NCBI GenBank assembly: GCA_001805245.1
Contig: MHEU01000003.1
Coordinates: 23,979 to 58,208, forward strand
Length of the DNA: 34,230 bases
Direction of reading: 5' to 3'
Source: Nitrospirae bacterium RIFCSPLOWO2_02_FULL_62_14
GTDB taxonomy: Bacteria; Nitrospirota; Nitrospiria; Nitrospirales; Nitrospiraceae
Both the position numbers and the translations under genes were made by a program. The notes under the pieces were generated by a model. That model did no database searches. It saw only the letters and a program-made list of their open reading frames with translations, and was not told where the DNA came from. Below are positions 9,248 through 23,284 of the stretch, piece after piece (the stretch's first letter is position 1; every line of letters begins with the position of its first letter).

Positions 9248-10120
9248 AGACGGCTTCCCCTCCTCGGAACCCACGATTTTGTGCAGCAATTTCGCGTCCT
9301 TCTCGACCGGCGCGGCAAAATCGCGGCTCCATTCCCACCAGGACCCGGGATAGTTCCTGACTTTTTGATAGCCGGCCAGTTTCAGCACGACATAGAGCCA
9401 GGCCGAGCGCACACCTCCCGTGCAATAGCAGACGACTTCATGGCTGGGATGCAGCCCCTTGTCATCGAGCCCCGCGCGGATCTTTTCGAGATCCTTGACC
9501 GTGGCATCCGGGTTCAAAAATGCGTTCCAGGGCACGCTGGCGGCGCCCGGAACGTGCCCCGAGCGGGGAATGCCTGAAATTTCCTTGCCGGCATACTCTT
9601 CCAGGCTGCGGGCATCCGCAATGACCGTCTCCGGATGCGGCCGCTTCACGATTTTCTTCAGCTCGTCCTTCTCGATGATCACATCGGAGTTCACAGCCGC
9701 CTTGAAGCTGCCCGGCTTCGGCGTCACGACGCCATGCTCGTACTTGCGGTGTTCGGCCGTCCATTTGACCCAGCCGCCATCCAGGATCTTGAGTCGCGCG
9801 TGGCCGAGGTACTGCAACATCCAGAACATCCGCCCTTCGTCGCCCCAGTTGTCGAACGGATTCGAATAGATCACGACGTCGCTGTCAGGATTGATGCCCA
9901 ACGACTGGATTTTCTGCTCGAGGCGGGACGTGTCCGGATCGAGCAGCCCCTTGGCCGCCGCGTCGGGATCACTGAACTCGTGCCACGTGGCATTCACGGC
10001 GCCCGGGATATGACCCCCGAAGGCATAGGCCGCCTTGCCGCGGACGTCGATAATGACCAGCCCCTCGCGCCCGAGGTTCTGGTCCAGCGTCGCCGTATCG
10101 ATGAGCATCGGATGGATCAT
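9245..10120 (-). CDS. Tandem-domain rhodanese (thiosulfate/3-mercaptopyruvate sulfurtransferase type)
   Basis: 291 residues with two rhodanese domains. The N-terminal domain (residues 1-125; VIIDVRGKAAYAFGGHIPGA, DGGWVKW) has SNPFDNW where the catalytic loop would be, so it lacks the active Cys. The C-terminal domain carries the loop CYCTGGVRS with catalytic Cys233. Such enzymes move sulfane sulfur from thiosulfate or mercaptopyruvate to cyanide or thiols. No signal peptide is seen, so it is probably cytoplasmic. It begins 21 bp after the pentaheme cytochrome gene on the same strand and is likely co-transcribed with it. AGGGAGA precedes the ATG. Confidence 0.9.
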   Translation of the reverse strand: MIHPMLIDTATLDQNLGREGLVIIDVRGKAAYAFGGHIPGAVNATWHEFSDPDAAAKGLLDPDTSRLEQKIQSLGINPDSDVVIYSNPFDNWGDEGRMFWMLQYLGHARLKILDGGWVKWTAEHRKYEHGVVTPKPGSFKAAVNSDVIIEKDELKKIVKRPHPETVIADARSLEEYAGKEISGIPRSGHVPGAASVPWNAFLNPDATVKDLEKIRAGLDDKGLHPSHEVVCYCTGGVRSAWLYVVLKLAGYQKVRNYPGSWWEWSRDFAAPVEKDAKLLHKIVGSEEGKPS

Positions 10121-16065: not shown

Positions 16066-17760
16066 CTACTTCTCCGTTTCGCCCCTGCGGCGCTTCAATT
16101 CCTCCTCCACCAGCACCCGGCGCAGCACCTTGCCGACGATCGTTTTCGGCAGCTCCGTCCTGAATTCCACGCGCTTCGGCACCTTGAATTTCGCCAATTC
16201 CCTCCGGCAATGCTCCAGCAGGTCGGCCGACGCCGCCTGCTCGCCCTCCTTCAGGACCACGTAGGCCTTGATCAGCTCGCCCCGCAATTCTTGCGGGATG
16301 CCGACAACCACCGCATCCTTCACCTTCGGATGCCGGAGCAGGGCTTCCTCGACCTCACGCGGGTAGACATTCTCCCCGCCCGACTTGATCATGTCCTTCT
16401 TGCGGTCCTCGATGTAGAAATAGCCGTCCGCATCGCGCCGGGCCATGTCGCCCGTGTAGAGCCAGCCGTCCCGCAGCACCTGGCTGGTTTCCTCCTCGCG
16501 ATGCCAGTAGCCGCGCATGACTTGTGGGCCGCGAACCACCAACTCGCCGATCCCGCCGACTGGAAGCTCGCGCTGCCCGGTTTCCGCGTCCATGATGCGC
16601 GCGTCGGTATCCGGGAGCGGCAGCCCGATGCTGCGCCGGTGCCGCTTCTCCATCGGCTGCTCGATCGGATTGGCGTGGGTCACGGGGCTGGCCTCCGTGA
16701 GCCCGTACCCCTCGACCAGCTTGGCTCCGGTCAACGCCTCGAACCGCTCCTGGACGGGGAGGGGCAGCGGCCCGGCTCCGCTGATGCAGACGCGGATCGA
16801 GTGCAGGTTGTAGCGATCCAGTTGCTGGTAGTTGTTGATCGCGGAGTACATCGCGGGAATGCCCGGGAAGATCGTCACCCGGTCACGCACGATGGCCTTC
16901 AGCACTTCGCCGACCTGGAACCGCGGCAGCAGCACCAGGCTGCTGCCCACGCCGAGCGCCAGGTTGAGGCAGACGCTCATGCCATACACGTGGAAGAACG
17001 GCAGGACGCCCAGGAACACCGCCTCTCCATCCCGGAGGGAAGGAATCCAGCTCCGGATCTGCCAGGTATTCGTCACCAGGTTGCGATGCGTCAGCACCAC
17101 GCCCTTGGGCACGCCGGTCGTCCCTCCGGTGTACTGCAGCAGCGCCGTGTCATCCGGGGCGATGGACACGGCCGGAGGCTCCGGCGGGACCTCCAGGAAC
17201 GGGCGAAAGGCATGGACGGCGGGATGGCTCGGCGGCCGCACCCACTGCCCTTCCCGCCTGGCTTTCAGCGGGTACAGCAGCCGTTTGAGCCACGGCAGGT
17301 AGTCCGCCACTCCCGCCAGGATCACCCGCTTGAGGTGCCCCTCGCGCAGCACCGGCTCGACCCGCGGGAAAAACTGACCAAAGGCCACCAGCATCTCGCA
17401 GCCCGAGTCCCTAACCTGGTGCCGGATCTCAGGCTCGACGTAGAGCGGGTTGATCATCGTCACCGTGGCGCCCGCGCGGAGGCTGCCGTAGAACGCGATC
17501 ACCGTCTGCGGCAGGTTCGGCAGCATGATGCCGACGACGCTGCCCTTGCCGATGCCCATCCGCAGCAGGGCCTGCGCGAACCGGTTGACCAGCTCATCCA
17601 GCTCGCGATACCGGATGATGCGGCCGTAGAAGAGCAGGGCCGGACGGTCGGGAAACCGGAACGCCGAGCGGGTCAGCAGCTGCGGTAGGGGTTCTTCGGG
17701 ATACGACAGGGTCGCGGCGACAGACGGGTCGTACTGCGCGGTCCAGGCGCGATCCATCAT
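16066..17760 (-). CDS. Long-chain fatty-acid--CoA ligase (AMP-forming), FadD-like
   Basis: About 564 residues of the ANL adenylate-forming superfamily, which activates a carboxylate to acyl-AMP and then acyl-CoA. The P-loop-like YTGGTTGVPKG, the A5 motif GYGLTEASP, the A7/A8 region GWLYTGDMARRDADGYFYIEDRKKDMIKSGG.. (YTGD and RKKD core) and the final Lys motif LPKTIVGKVLRR are all present. The segment PFFHVYGM and the overall order fit medium- to long-chain acyl-CoA synthetases. Starts at ATG 17760 or 17757 are preferred over an upstream GTG; none has a strong ribosome binding site. It is divergent from the DUF192 gene, with a 65-bp intergenic region. Confidence 0.9.
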   Translation of the reverse strand: MMDRAWTAQYDPSVAATLSYPEEPLPQLLTRSAFRFPDRPALLFYGRIIRYRELDELVNRFAQALLRMGIGKGSVVGIMLPNLPQTVIAFYGSLRAGATVTMINPLYVEPEIRHQVRDSGCEMLVAFGQFFPRVEPVLREGHLKRVILAGVADYLPWLKRLLYPLKARREGQWVRPPSHPAVHAFRPFLEVPPEPPAVSIAPDDTALLQYTGGTTGVPKGVVLTHRNLVTNTWQIRSWIPSLRDGEAVFLGVLPFFHVYGMSVCLNLALGVGSSLVLLPRFQVGEVLKAIVRDRVTIFPGIPAMYSAINNYQQLDRYNLHSIRVCISGAGPLPLPVQERFEALTGAKLVEGYGLTEASPVTHANPIEQPMEKRHRRSIGLPLPDTDARIMDAETGQRELPVGGIGELVVRGPQVMRGYWHREEETSQVLRDGWLYTGDMARRDADGYFYIEDRKKDMIKSGGENVYPREVEEALLRHPKVKDAVVVGIPQELRGELIKAYVVLKEGEQAASADLLEHCRRELAKFKVPKRVEFRTELPKTIVGKVLRRVLVEEELKRRRGETEK

Positions 17761-17789
17761 GTCTTGCACCGGCCGCTGTCGGAACCGCC

Positions 17790-18457: not shown

Positions 18458-20632
18458 TTACTCGTGCCAGGCGCGGATGCGTCTCGCCGTGATCACGCCT
18501 TCGACCTTTTCGATCGCCTTCAGCACCCGGTCCAGATGCGCCGTATCCTGCACCTCGACCACGAAATTGAGGATGGCCTTCCGGTCCTCGCTCGTGGCGA
18601 TCTCGGCGCGCGTGATGTTGGCCTCCGCGCCTGAAATGGAAGACGACACGTTCGCCAGCACCCCGGGCTTGTCCACCGCCACCACCGACACCTTGACCGG
18701 GTGCGTGCTGGGAGTCGTGAAATCCCATTCGACGTCGATGAGACGGTCCCGGTCGTAATCCAGTGCGTCAAGGTTGGGACAGCCGACCGCATGAATCGTC
18801 AGGCCGCGCCCCCTGGTGATATAGCCCATGATCCGGTCGCCCGGAACCGGATTGCAGCAGCGGGACAGTTGCATGAGCAGGTCGCGCCCACCCTTGACCT
18901 TGACGCTCTTTTCCTCGTCCTTCGCGCCGGGAATCCGTTCAGCTGCCGGCGCGCCGACCGCGGGCCCGGCCTCCGCGGACACCGGCTCGAGCAGCCAGCT
19001 CGCCACTTTTGCGGCTGAGACGTGGCCATAGCCGACGGCGGCCGCCAGGTCGTCGAGCGTATCGAAACCGGATTTTCGCGCGGCGTCCAACAGGCGGTCT
19101 GATTTCAACGTCTGGGCGGGCGGCAGGTCATGGCGCTTGAGCTCCCGCTCCAGGAGACGACGTCCGACCTCCACGCTGCGTTTCTGCTGCTCGGCCTTGA
19201 GCCAGTGCTTGATCTTGGTCTTCGCGCGGGAGGTCCGGACGAACTTCAGCCAGTCCTTGTGCGGGACCTGCGTCGGGGAGGTGAGAATCTCGACTGTATC
19301 CCCGCTTTTGATCTGGTGCTTCAAGGGAACGATCTTGCCGTTCACCTTCGCCCCGACGCAGTGGTCGCCGATCTCCGTGTGGATGGCGTAGGCGAAGTCC
19401 ACCGGCGTCGAGCCCAGGGGCATTTCCTTCACCATCCCCTTGGGCGTGAAGATATAGACGACGTCGTGGAAGAGATCCAGCTTGACGGAATCCATGAACT
19501 GGCGATTGTCGGCCAGGTCCTGGTTCCACTCCACGAACTGGCGCAGCCAGTTGAAGGCCTTGCCCTCTTGGGCGTCGATCGTGCCAGGCTCCTTGTATTT
19601 CCAATGCGCGGCGATGCCGTACTCGGCGATCCGATGCATCTCCTCCGTCCTGATCTGGAACTCGACCCGCTCGCCCTTGGGACCGACGACCGTGGTGTGG
19701 AGCGATTGGTACAGGTTCGACTTGGGGATGGCGATGTAATCCTTGAACCGGCCCGGCACCGGCCGCCAGAGGGAATGGATCAACCCCAGCGCCGCGTAGC
19801 AGTTCATCTTCGAATCCGTGATGATGCGCACGGCCGTCAGGTCGTACACTTCGTCGAACGGCACCGACTGGCGTTCCATTTTCTGGTAGATCCCGTACAG
19901 GTGCTTGGGCCTGCCCTGGACTTCGCCTTTCAAGCCCGCCTCCGTCAGCGCCTGCCTGACCAGCTGAACGACGTCCTGGATATATTGCTGCCGCTCCTCG
20001 TCCCGCTTGGCCACCCGCATTTTCAGCTCGGCATAGACGTCGGGCTTCAGCGCCTTGAGGCACAGGTCCTCCAGCTCGTTCTTCATCCATCCGATGCCAA
20101 GCCGGTTCGCCAGGGGGCCGTAGATCTCGATCGTTTCCTGGGCAATCTGCCGGCGCTTGGCTTCCTGCAGATGTTCCAGCGTCCGCATGTTATGGAGGCG
20201 GTCGGCCAGCTTGATGAGGACGACCCGGATGTCGTCCGCCATCGACAGGACCATCTTGCGGAAATTTTCAGCCTGCTTTTCCTCGTAGTTCCTGAACGGA
20301 ATTTTCCCGATCTTGGTCACGCCGTCGACCAGATGCACGACGTCCTTGCCGAACTCCTTCTCCAGCTGATCCGGCGTCGCCAGCGTGTCTTCGAGCGTGT
20401 CGTGCAACAGCCCGGCCGCCACGGCGGTGACATCCGAGCGCAACGCGGTGAGCACGCCGGCCACCGCCAGGGGATGCTGCAGGTAGGGCTCGCCGGACCG
20501 CCTCGTCTGGCCTGCGTGGGCCTTCTCGGAAAAGGCATAGGCCCGACGCACCAGTTCCACGTCGGCATGCGGGTTGTAGCTTTGGACCCGGCTGATCAAC
20601 TGATCGAGATCTGTGATCGTGTCGTTCGGCAT
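18458..20632 (-). CDS. rel: Bifunctional (p)ppGpp synthetase/hydrolase Rel (RelA/SpoT homologue)
   Basis: 724 residues from ATG 20632 (MPNDTITDLD); a longer frame upstream is rejected because it lacks family sequence. Domains in order: HD hydrolase (residues 25-180, HDTLED with His77-Asp78), synthetase (about 235-350), TGS (VVYIFTPKGMVKEMPLGSTP), a helical region, a zinc-finger/CC region (SRCCNPVPGD) and a C-terminal ACT domain. The synthetase loop reads GRFKDYIAIPKSN: the RxKD form of bifunctional Rel/SpoT, not the ExDD of synthetase-only RelA. It makes and degrades the stringent-response alarmone. A near-consensus promoter lies 125 bp upstream, giving a leader of about 118 nt. Confidence 0.93.
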   Translation of the reverse strand: MPNDTITDLDQLISRVQSYNPHADVELVRRAYAFSEKAHAGQTRRSGEPYLQHPLAVAGVLTALRSDVTAVAAGLLHDTLEDTLATPDQLEKEFGKDVVHLVDGVTKIGKIPFRNYEEKQAENFRKMVLSMADDIRVVLIKLADRLHNMRTLEHLQEAKRRQIAQETIEIYGPLANRLGIGWMKNELEDLCLKALKPDVYAELKMRVAKRDEERQQYIQDVVQLVRQALTEAGLKGEVQGRPKHLYGIYQKMERQSVPFDEVYDLTAVRIITDSKMNCYAALGLIHSLWRPVPGRFKDYIAIPKSNLYQSLHTTVVGPKGERVEFQIRTEEMHRIAEYGIAAHWKYKEPGTIDAQEGKAFNWLRQFVEWNQDLADNRQFMDSVKLDLFHDVVYIFTPKGMVKEMPLGSTPVDFAYAIHTEIGDHCVGAKVNGKIVPLKHQIKSGDTVEILTSPTQVPHKDWLKFVRTSRAKTKIKHWLKAEQQKRSVEVGRRLLERELKRHDLPPAQTLKSDRLLDAARKSGFDTLDDLAAAVGYGHVSAAKVASWLLEPVSAEAGPAVGAPAAERIPGAKDEEKSVKVKGGRDLLMQLSRCCNPVPGDRIMGYITRGRGLTIHAVGCPNLDALDYDRDRLIDVEWDFTTPSTHPVKVSVVAVDKPGVLANVSSSISGAEANITRAEIATSEDRKAILNFVVEVQDTAHLDRVLKAIEKVEGVITARRIRAWHE

Positions 20633-20756
20633 GGCAGTTCTTATCACCGGCACCACCGGGTGGACTCCCGCCCAGCCTGATTGCCAACCCGGCGAAACAG
20701 ATGCCGGATTCTGCGATCGGTCGGACAGACAACGCAACTTGCTGAATTTAAAGAAG

Positions 20757-20785
20757 ATACTAGACGCTCAGGAAATGTTTGTCAA
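20757..20785 (-). promoter_or_regulatory. Promoter of rel
   Basis: On the minus strand: consensus TTGACA (20785-20780), a 17-bp spacer and TAGTAT (20762-20757). It stands between the UBact terminator and the rel start. Confidence 0.75.
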
Positions 20786-20832: not shown

Positions 20833-20877
20833 AAAAAAACGGGAGGCGGGAATGGCGGGCCTATTGCCCGCCCTTCT
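20833..20877 (-). terminator. Putative terminator of the UBact gene
   Basis: On the minus strand, GGGCGGGC spanning the last codons pairs with GCCCGCC just after the stop (alternatively with a second CCCGCC), and a run of seven T residues follows (A-run 20833-20839 on the plus strand). The T-run is several bases beyond the first stem, so the exact fold is uncertain. Confidence 0.5.
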
Positions 20878-21058
20878 GCACGTAGTTTTTCACGAACTCT
20901 TCGGCGTTTTCCTCGAGGACGTTGTCGATCTCGTCCACGAGCTTGTCGATTTCCTCTTTCAGCTTCTTACCGGATTCGACAACCTTGGGATTCGGCTTGA
21001 CGTCCTCTTTGGCCTGAGGCTCTTTTTTGGACTCGGATTTCCGCTCCTGCTTTTCCAT
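20861..21058 (-). CDS. ubact: UBact/Pup-like prokaryotic ubiquitin-like protein
   Basis: A 65-residue, very charged protein with no hydrophobic core. A Lys/Glu-rich disordered N-terminus leads to a coiled-coil-like stretch (KKLKEEIDKLVDEIDNVLEE), then EEFVKNYVQKGGQ at the C-terminus. The Gly-Gly-Gln end, size, and Tyr-Val-Gln-Lys-Gly-Gly ending match Pup, and UBact as described in Nitrospirota and relatives. In Pup a C-terminal Gln is deamidated by Dop before PafA ligates it to lysines of target proteins for proteasomal degradation. Those enzymes and the proteasome are not in this window. GGAGGT precedes the ATG; the gene has its own promoter and a hairpin in its leader. Confidence 0.85.
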   Translation of the reverse strand: MEKQERKSESKKEPQAKEDVKPNPKVVESGKKLKEEIDKLVDEIDNVLEENAEEFVKNYVQKGGQ

Positions 21059-21075
21059 CGGAGCACCTCCACACC

Positions 21076-21169: not shown

Positions 21170-21199
21170 AGGATAACCCCGCCTCGATAAGTTCGTCAA
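21170..21199 (-). promoter_or_regulatory. Putative promoter of the UBact gene
   Basis: On the minus strand: TTGACG (21199-21194), an 18-bp spacer and TATCCT (21175-21170). The leader of about 105 nt contains the hairpin repeat at 21076-21144. Confidence 0.6.
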
Positions 21200-21232: not shown

Positions 21233-23284
21233 CTAGACGATCAACGACACGATCAGCAGCGCCACGATATTGATCACCTTGATCATGGGATTGATCGCCG
21301 GGCCGGCCGTGTCCTTGTACGGATCGCCGACTGTGTCGCCGGTCACCGCCGCCTTGTGCGTGTCGCTCCCCTTCTTGCCCTGCTCCTCAATATACTTCTT
21401 CGCATTGTCCCAGGCACCCCCACCGCTGGTCATCGAGATCGCGACGAAGAGACCGGTCACGATGCTGCCCACGAGCACGCCGCCGAGCGCCTGCGGACCC
21501 AGGACGACGCCCACCAGAATCGGCGATACGACGGGAATCAATCCGGGGATCATCATTTTTTTGATGGCGGCCTGCGTAACGATGTCGACGCAGGTGCCGT
21601 ACTCGGGTTTGCCGGTTCCCTCCATGATTCCTTTGATCGTCCTGAACTGCCTGCGCACCTCTTCGACCACGAGACCGGCCGCCTCCCCCACGGCTTTCAT
21701 GCAGAGGGCCCCGAAGATAAACGGCAGCATGCCGCCCAGAAACAGCCCGACCAGGACCAAAGGATTGGAGAGGTCGAAGGTGCTCGCCCCGCTGCCTTTG
21801 CCCACTTCGCGCGCGTATTCGGCAAATAAGACCACCGCCGCAAGTCCGGCCGACCCGATGGCATAGCCTTTCGTCACCGCTTTCGTCGTATTCCCGACGG
21901 CATCCAATGGATCGGTGATGTTCCGCACCTCTTTGCCGAGATGGGCCATTTCCGCGATGCCGCCCGCGTTGTCGGTAATCGGCCCGAAGGCGTCGATCGC
22001 AACCACAATGCCCGCCATGGACAGCATCGACACAGCGGCAACCGCCACGCCATACAGCCCGCCGCCCGCTGCGCCGCCGCAGATCCAGTAGCTGCCAAGA
22101 ATCGCCCCGCCGATCACCACCACCGGCCAGGCCGTCGCCTGCATCCCCACGGCAAGCCCCGCGATGATATTCGTCGCATGGCCCGTTTCGCTCGCCTTCG
22201 CAATGGCCTTCACTGGCGCATAATCTTTGGAGGTGTAATAGTCGGTGATGAACACCAGCGCGAGCGTCACCGCCAATCCCACCAACGCGGCGATGTAATA
22301 GCTCGTGCCGCTGACGCCGCCCACGCCTTCCATGATTTTCATCGTGACCGGATAAAAGGCCGCCGCCGCAATCCCGCCGGCGACGAAGAGACCCTTATAG
22401 AGCGCTGTCATGATGCCTCCCCCCGAACCCACTTTGACGAAGAGGATGCCGATGATCGTCGCAAAGATCGTGACACCGCCGAGCGCCAGCGGATAGAGAA
22501 TCGGCGCGCTCTGTCCCTTGAACAGGGTGAAGGCCAGCACCATGGCCGCGACGGTCGTCACGGCGTAGGTCTCGAACAGGTCCGCGGCCATGCCGGCACA
22601 GTCGCCGACATTGTCGCCCACGTTGTCGGCAATGACGGCCGGATTGCGCGGATCGTCTTCCGGAATTCCCGCTTCAACCTTGCCGACCAGGTCAGCGCCG
22701 ACGTCCGCCGCCTTGGTATAGATCCCGCCGCCGACACGCGCAAAGACCGAGATCAAACTGCCGCCGAATCCCAGGCTCAGCAGCGCATGGATCGCTTTTT
22801 CCTGCCCCGCGAACTGAGAGGCCAGCGTGTAGAAGCCGGTGATCGCCAGCAAGCCCAGGCCGATCAGCAGCAACCCGGTCACCGCCCCGCCGCGGAAGGC
22901 CACGGTCAGGGCCGCGTTCAAGCCGCCATGGGCCGCCTGCGCCGTGCGGACATTCGCGCGCACCGCGATGATCATGCCGACATAGCCGGCAATCGCCGAG
23001 GCGCCGGCGCCGATCAGGAAACCGACCGCCGTCAGCAGGCCGAATTTATCCGAAGCCAAACCACCCGCCCACAGAATGGCGAACAGCACGGCCGCCACGA
23101 CGCCGACCGTCCGGTACTGGCGGTTCATGTAGGCGCCCGCGCCCTCCTGAATCGCCTTGGCAATTTCCTGCATCTTGGCGTTGCCGGCGTTGAGCTTGAA
23201 CACCCACATGGCCAGATACAGGCCGTAGGCAATCCCGGTCACCGCAGCTATCAACGCGAACGTGACAATCGCTGAATCGCTCAC
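21233..23284 (-). CDS. hppA: Membrane-bound proton-translocating pyrophosphatase, K+-independent type
   Basis: A 683-residue protein with about 16 membrane helices that couples PPi hydrolysis to ion pumping. Family signatures are [39 protein letters not shown] and, near the end, [21 protein letters not shown]. The segment [19 protein letters not shown] carries Lys in GNTTKA where K+-dependent enzymes have Ala (GNTTAA), so this should be the K+-independent, H+-pumping class. GTG 23284 follows GGGAGGAG. It recovers energy from biosynthetic PPi, useful for an organism on a low-energy metabolism. It is upstream of UBact on the same strand, but UBact has its own promoter. Confidence 0.95.

Follow-up and report, generated by a model that had tools for sequence, protein, structure and literature searches.

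A pup gene located apart from its enzyme cluster, with a promoter-like element of its own, in the Nitrospirales

The window analyzed here, a stretch of 34,230 nucleotides from a genome of the order Nitrospirales, contains a pup gene that stands by itself between hppA and rel (Table 1), on a different contig from the genes for Mpa, Dop, PrcB, PrcA, and PafA. Pup is a small protein tag by which bacteria mark other proteins for the proteasome. The reading that we favor, and hold with high confidence, is that the gene encodes a working Pup belonging to an ordinary pupylation–proteasome pathway and that it left the cluster mpa–dop–pup–prcB–prcA–pafA once, at the root of the order or earlier, settled below hppA, and gained a promoter of the σ70 type. 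The identities of the parts, their place, the promoter-like element, and the Asp motif of Dop were read from the sequence, and the relocation comes from the comparison of genomes.

Table 1. Positions of pup and its neighbors in the window, and of the enzyme genes on contig 10 of the same genome
Feature	Position	Strand	Basis
pup, 65-residue Pup ending KGGQ	20861..21058	-	PF05639, TIGR03687, solved Pup chains
GGAGG ribosome-binding site, 7 nt before ATG	21066..21070	-	sequence
pup promoter-like element, TTGACG-18-TATCCT	21170..21199	-	promoter scan; conserved in order
Terminator-like hairpin over pup stop codon	20854..20872	-	fold
T7 run after hairpin	20833..20839	-	sequence
hppA, membrane pyrophosphatase, upstream neighbor	21233..23284	-	NF001951, 1020 bits
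rel (RelA/SpoT family), downstream neighbor	18458..20737 (ORF)	-	TIGR00691, 797 bits
Promoter-like site before rel, TTGACA-17-TAGTAT	20757..20785	-	promoter scan
Mpa	contig 10, 9750-11585		NCBIfam equivalog cut-off passed
Dop	contig 10, 11609-13090		557 bits (NCBIfam cut-off 492.3)
PrcB	contig 10, 13136-13963		NCBIfam equivalog cut-off passed
PrcA	contig 10, 13966-14646		NCBIfam equivalog cut-off passed
PafA	contig 10, 14737-16113		569 bits (NCBIfam cut-off 551.3)

The open reading frame, which is read from 21058 down to 20861, extends from an ATG to KGGQ followed by TAG; the N-terminal half of its product is rich in lysine and glutamate, and the protein ends in ENAEEFVKNYVQKGGQ. The Pfam model for Pup, PF05639, matched it with an E-value of 3.2e-21 (76.4 bits, cut-off 27), the NCBIfam model for the Pup C-terminus, TIGR03687, scored 61.1 bits (cut-off 41.45), and solved mycobacterial Pup chains aligned with 38 of its residues at a best E-value of 3.5e-11. 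The frame is open and keeps every column found invariant in an alignment of 24 Pups, a Pup homolog lies at a similar site in 56 relatives, and the match is the only one to Pup in the window's genome, which amounts to 2.66 Mb in 76 contigs and is 95% complete. The KGGQ end supplies the C-terminal Gly-Gly-Gln or Gly-Gly-Glu expected of a Pup, and the same genome encodes PafA and, as called for by a Gln end, Dop. Judged by its sequence, with a signal far above chance, the window gene is a Pup, and Pup and its chemistry are ordinary in this lineage. An earlier note on this DNA had described a 65-residue protein with a KGGQ end lying between hppA and rel; the reading frame and the family matches bear out the protein, and family models identify both neighbors. 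The true start of rel is probably the ATG at 20632.

The same note had called the gene a ubiquitin homologue and UBact, and neither name stands. Pup is unrelated to ubiquitin in both sequence and fold, according to passages of PMC2588565 and PMC3511204. UBact, the Pup analog of Gram-negative bacteria, is a separate family with a model of its own, NF033388, which did not match the window protein at E-values up to 10 or anything in the window's genome, and which found UBact in 28 of the 61 genomes of the order. A similar size, a Gln or Glu end, and kinship to Nitrospira could suggest UBact, but NF033388 is unmatched by protein and genome, TIGR03687 is passed, and UBact of relatives lies in a different cluster. 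We reject this identity, whose probability we regard as close to nil. Three such clusters (L128–L130) were compared, and their Mpa-, Dop-, PrcB-, PrcA-, and PafA-like genes are 27–44% identical to the first set. UBact follows the dop-like gene in L128 (9422–9616), and in a table comparison it came just after a dop-like gene in 26 of 28 genomes, the other two not being placeable. The UBact system, absent from the window's genome, is present in its genus-mate G002.

The partners of Pup are encoded elsewhere in the genome. Contig 10 holds together two genes of the Pup-ligase family, two 20S subunits, and Mpa above the cut-off, downstream of thi genes (names read from translations), and pup is not among them. 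The claim that the tag is encoded apart from its enzymes was thus correct, and a genome search for dop, pafA, and proteasome genes, which had been proposed along with it, recovered all of them, each over its NCBIfam cut-off; Dop and PafA, whose absence had been named as grounds for abandoning the claim, are both there. Between dop and prcB, the usual place of pup, there are about 45 bases, with no room for the gene, and a second pup inside the cluster is excluded by this gap and by the single Pup match in the genome. Dop and PafA align over almost their full length with solved homologs, and the C-terminus of Mpa is STGHYF. Dop keeps the Asp of the motif YVDxAHPEY, as do all 30 order Dop loci that we looked at, and PafA keeps YQDTGCHPEY; we take the Asp of these motifs to be the catalytic one. 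That a conserved Asp of Dop/PafA-type enzymes is catalytic is stated in passages of PMC3511204.

The separate location is not peculiar to the window. Our sample of the order comprised 61 genomes (the window's own and 60 relatives), and we compared the pup regions of the 57 relatives with a match together with the window's own. Pup matched in 58 of the 61 genomes and the Pup-ligase family in all 61, above the cut-off in 60; three genomes (G008, G043, and G053) have Dop/PafA-family genes and no pup that we could find, most likely as a result of assembly gaps. Pup was intact in 57 of the 58 regions, the remaining one (G045) containing a remnant. Genes for Mpa, Dop, PrcB, PrcA, or PafA were found in 0 of 57 pup regions, 42 of which reach 5 kb or more to either side of pup, and no PafA-family gene adjoins pup in the window's genome, as it would at a canonical locus. 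A same-strand hppA is found no more than 3 kb upstream of pup in 49 of 57 regions, and rel follows pup at a distance of up to 4 kb in 53 of 57. Contig ends account for several of the misses, but hppA is truly further off or was not found near pup in part of family f3, and G027 showed no rel in 7.4 kb. Between pup and the nearest hppA the spacer ranges from 64 to 899 nt, and for some members of family f3 the distance is kilobases. The relatives inspected for recJ carry this gene between pup and rel, and most relatives have the order pup–recJ–rel on one strand; the window's genus and G007 lack recJ at this position. We also compared 80 loci named Nitrospiraceae, Nitrospira, or Nitrospirae, including Nitrospira moscoviensis, from genomes that partly overlap the order sample: none had an enzyme match, 75 had hppA, 74 had recJ (within 1.5 kb), and 72 had rel (within 4.5 kb). 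Both dop and prcB could be placed in 29 of 30 order loci, and in all 29 the gap between them is without pup. Fourteen genomes, read by eye, have pup and dop on one contig; the two genes share a strand in all of these, at distances that range from 43 kb to 1.4 Mb and are 43–50 kb in eight.

The genome with the remnant, G045, is 96% complete. Its only match to the Pup-ligase family is weak (8.7e-5, below the cut-off), its sole proteasome-family gene is HslV beside HslU (names read from translations), and it has no 20S proteasome. At the usual site by recJ and rel is a pup remnant (L113, about 9937–10074) that ends in QQGRG and matched at 41% over 41 residues by tblastn. In this one case the enzymes are lost and the distant pup has decayed along with them, as expected if the two work together. 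With a true leftover at hand in a relative, the window gene might be taken for the leftover of a decaying pathway or for a chance reading frame. We consider this highly improbable, however, because the window Pup keeps the invariant columns, its frame is open, and its enzymes are intact; a chance reading frame or pseudogene is also ruled out by the PF05639 match and by the single-copy Pup match.

Of the 57 intact Pups found in the order, 45 terminate in GGE and the other 12 in GGQ, and a failure of the GG end to persist in relatives, which the earlier note had named as telling against its reading, was not seen. Its statement that the Gln implies a deamidation step of the Dop type holds for the window Pup; most relatives encode GGE and would need no such step. 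The last residue changed between Gln and Glu at least seven times on a Rel tree of 53 rows (the count uses the 52 that have an intact pup), once between two species of a single genus, G025 with Gln and G034 with Glu. This alternation rules out the Gln end as a peculiarity at the level of the genus. No change in the Dop active-site motif that tracks Gln or Glu was seen among the 30 order Dop loci. The Pup of G054 (L121, 9895–10110) has an insertion in its helical part and NVQKGGE in place of YVQKGGE.

Across the phylum, Pup was found in 137 of 295 genomes. For loci outside the order we examined 40 of 43 pup loci, in 38 of 41 genomes from other orders of the class and from other classes, leaving out those of G133, G136, and G150. 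All 40 adjoin Pup-system genes; pup sits between dop and prcB in nearly every one, and dop and/or prcB is next to it in 39 as far as the contig reaches; the modifier had indeed been said to lie beside dop and pafA in many genomes. The remaining locus, in G091 (77% complete), has only pafA, directly after pup (L166, 4578–6220), and no proteasome, Dop, or Mpa gene was seen on its 13-kb contig. A pup–pafA pair without proteasome genes is described in corynebacteria. Since the detachment of pup is specific to the order, a single move is indicated, at its root or earlier. We looked for an empty site, hppA–recJ–rel without pup, outside the order: 11 of 18 same-class genomes had an hppA, and none of the nine hppA regions compared had recJ or rel nearby. 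The site is therefore itself specific to the order, and the insertion is not datable by it. Duplication followed by loss of the old copy would give the same pattern, and is indistinguishable here from local rearrangement.

How might the detached gene be expressed? We searched up to 160 nt upstream of pup in the order for the pattern TTGAC(G/C/A), 16–19 nt, TAnnnT and found it in 49 of 57 members, with a spacing of 17 or 18 in all 49 and with TGGRG preceding the -10 element in most; it is missing in the other eight. Among control upstreams, the pattern was present in 0 of 45 for hppA, 3 of 54 for rel, and 0 of 85 for six further genes. Control counts of this kind are rough, as the control upstreams begin at the first aligned residue and hence possibly inside the gene. 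A second scoring gave at least 9 of 12 matches in 34 of 57 members, against 1.9 expected from dinucleotide shuffles. Outside the order, no pup (0 of 40) had the pattern within 250 nt of its aligned start. A promoter of its own, as had been claimed for the window pup, is well supported by this conservation within the order as against loci elsewhere, with the promoter being a consensus match and not a mapped transcript start. A purine-rich site like the GGAGG of the window precedes pup in most of the relatives compared. Unlike other neighbors, the reading frame at 16066–17769 of the window (minus strand) has the same promoter pattern upstream in 9 of 16 relatives.

The terminator that had been claimed together with the promoter fared less well. 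There is a hairpin with a 7-bp GC stem spanning the pup stop, and a T7 run begins 14 nt further on; the case is weaker than that for the promoter, and the terminator scan did not list the hairpin. The folded stretch at the 3' end of pup has a z of -2.7, and 16 of 200 shuffles were as strong as the window's own hairpin. A hairpin over the pup stop that was matched by at most 10 of 200 shuffles was seen in 14 of 57 order members, where about three were expected. A pup terminator is likely, and it is less uniform than the promoter. The codons for the terminal Gly-Gly-Gln (20866–20872) form the 5' arm of the hairpin that encloses the stop, as do the Gly-Gly-Gln or Gly-Gly-Glu codons of relatives with such a hairpin; the end of the coding sequence may double as a terminator stem. 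The pup stop TGA is overlapped by an ATG or GTG in six genomes of family f2 (L106, L109, L114, L117, L119, and L122), and in at least one f2 genome the frame that follows, read by eye, resembles that of a secreted protein carrying a signal peptide.

The same-strand order pup–recJ–rel of most relatives would also fit an operon that pup leads or joins, tying tagging to the stringent response or to DNA repair. The hairpin after pup in the window and in the 14 members argues against it, as do the promoter-like site of rel in the window and the lack of an intervening recJ in G007 and the window's genus. We therefore judge such an operon improbable.

Under the reading of a relocated, working Pup, pup would be transcribed from its own σ70-type promoter. 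By analogy with known systems, Dop from the distant cluster would deamidate the C-terminal Gln to Glu, PafA would join the side chain of that Glu to lysines of target proteins, the coiled coil of Mpa would bind the Pup helix, the 20S core would degrade the target, and Dop would also take Pup off again. We infer this biochemistry, including isopeptide conjugation to lysines, from the Pup systems of Actinobacteria. As to the purpose of the move, our hypothesis is that relocation lets the supply of the tag vary independently of the enzymes, a neutral move being equally likely. Tentatively, the dedicated, order-specific promoter, and possibly growth-state signals shared with recJ–rel, could set how much of the consumable tag Pup is made, which would make tag supply, rather than the level of the enzymes, the control point of pupylation in the order; we hold this to be possible though doubtful. 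The anatomy would be the same, and only the purpose would differ, if a functional Pup had moved neutrally, with selection only for some promoter and with dosage control unaltered, a course to which we assign slightly less than an even chance. To our knowledge hppA, recJ, and rel have no link to pupylation, which together with the widely varying spacer between pup and hppA speaks for a neutral move, whereas the retention of the place and of a single promoter type over several families of the order speaks against it. The sister orders as controls, and a paralogous UBact system that has retained the earlier arrangement in many cells of the order, offer a direct test of whether tag supply is regulated separately from the enzymes. 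Gene-neighborhood searches for pupylation would overlook pup in these genomes.

Finally, we compare the relocated gene with known systems. Actinobacterial Pup, as in the solved structures from Mycobacterium tuberculosis, resembles the window Pup in size, in a disordered N-terminal half and a helical C-terminal half, and in a VQKGGQ end, and both systems have the full enzyme set. In Actinobacteria, however, pup is directly upstream of prcB and usually after dop (according to passages of PMC3511204), whereas the window pup is alone, on another contig, and with its own promoter-like element. Leptospirillum ferrooxidans, of the same phylum, has two pupylation clusters, one Pup of which "even lacks the terminal GGE" (figure legend of PMC3511204); the UBact cluster of the order may correspond to this second copy. 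That system is unlike ours in that, per the legend, its gene order is rigidly conserved. A transcript table for L. ferriphilum, part of PMC9053815, in which Pup is up 4.2-fold, was set aside as support because pup could not be placed in that species. The UBact system is alike in its Mpa-, Dop-, PrcB-, PrcA-, and PafA-like enzymes and in a small tag with a Glu end; it differs in that the tag, of family NF033388, stays by the dop-like gene and in that the whole system is missing from the window's genome. The published view, in the figure 2 legend of PMC3511204, is that gene order at pup loci is rigidly conserved. Our literature search turned up no described detached pup in Nitrospira, with a mention in the original UBact paper or in De Mot 2007 being possible. 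The canonical loci elsewhere in the phylum have homologous Mpa, Dop, PrcB, PrcA, and PafA as well as Pup, with a PafA 51–78% identical to that of the window's genome; there, in contrast, pup is by its enzymes in 40 of 40 loci, and none has the TTGAC promoter within 250 nt. With these sister orders as controls, the order that includes Nitrospira consistently departs from the published rule that pup lies beside its enzymes.
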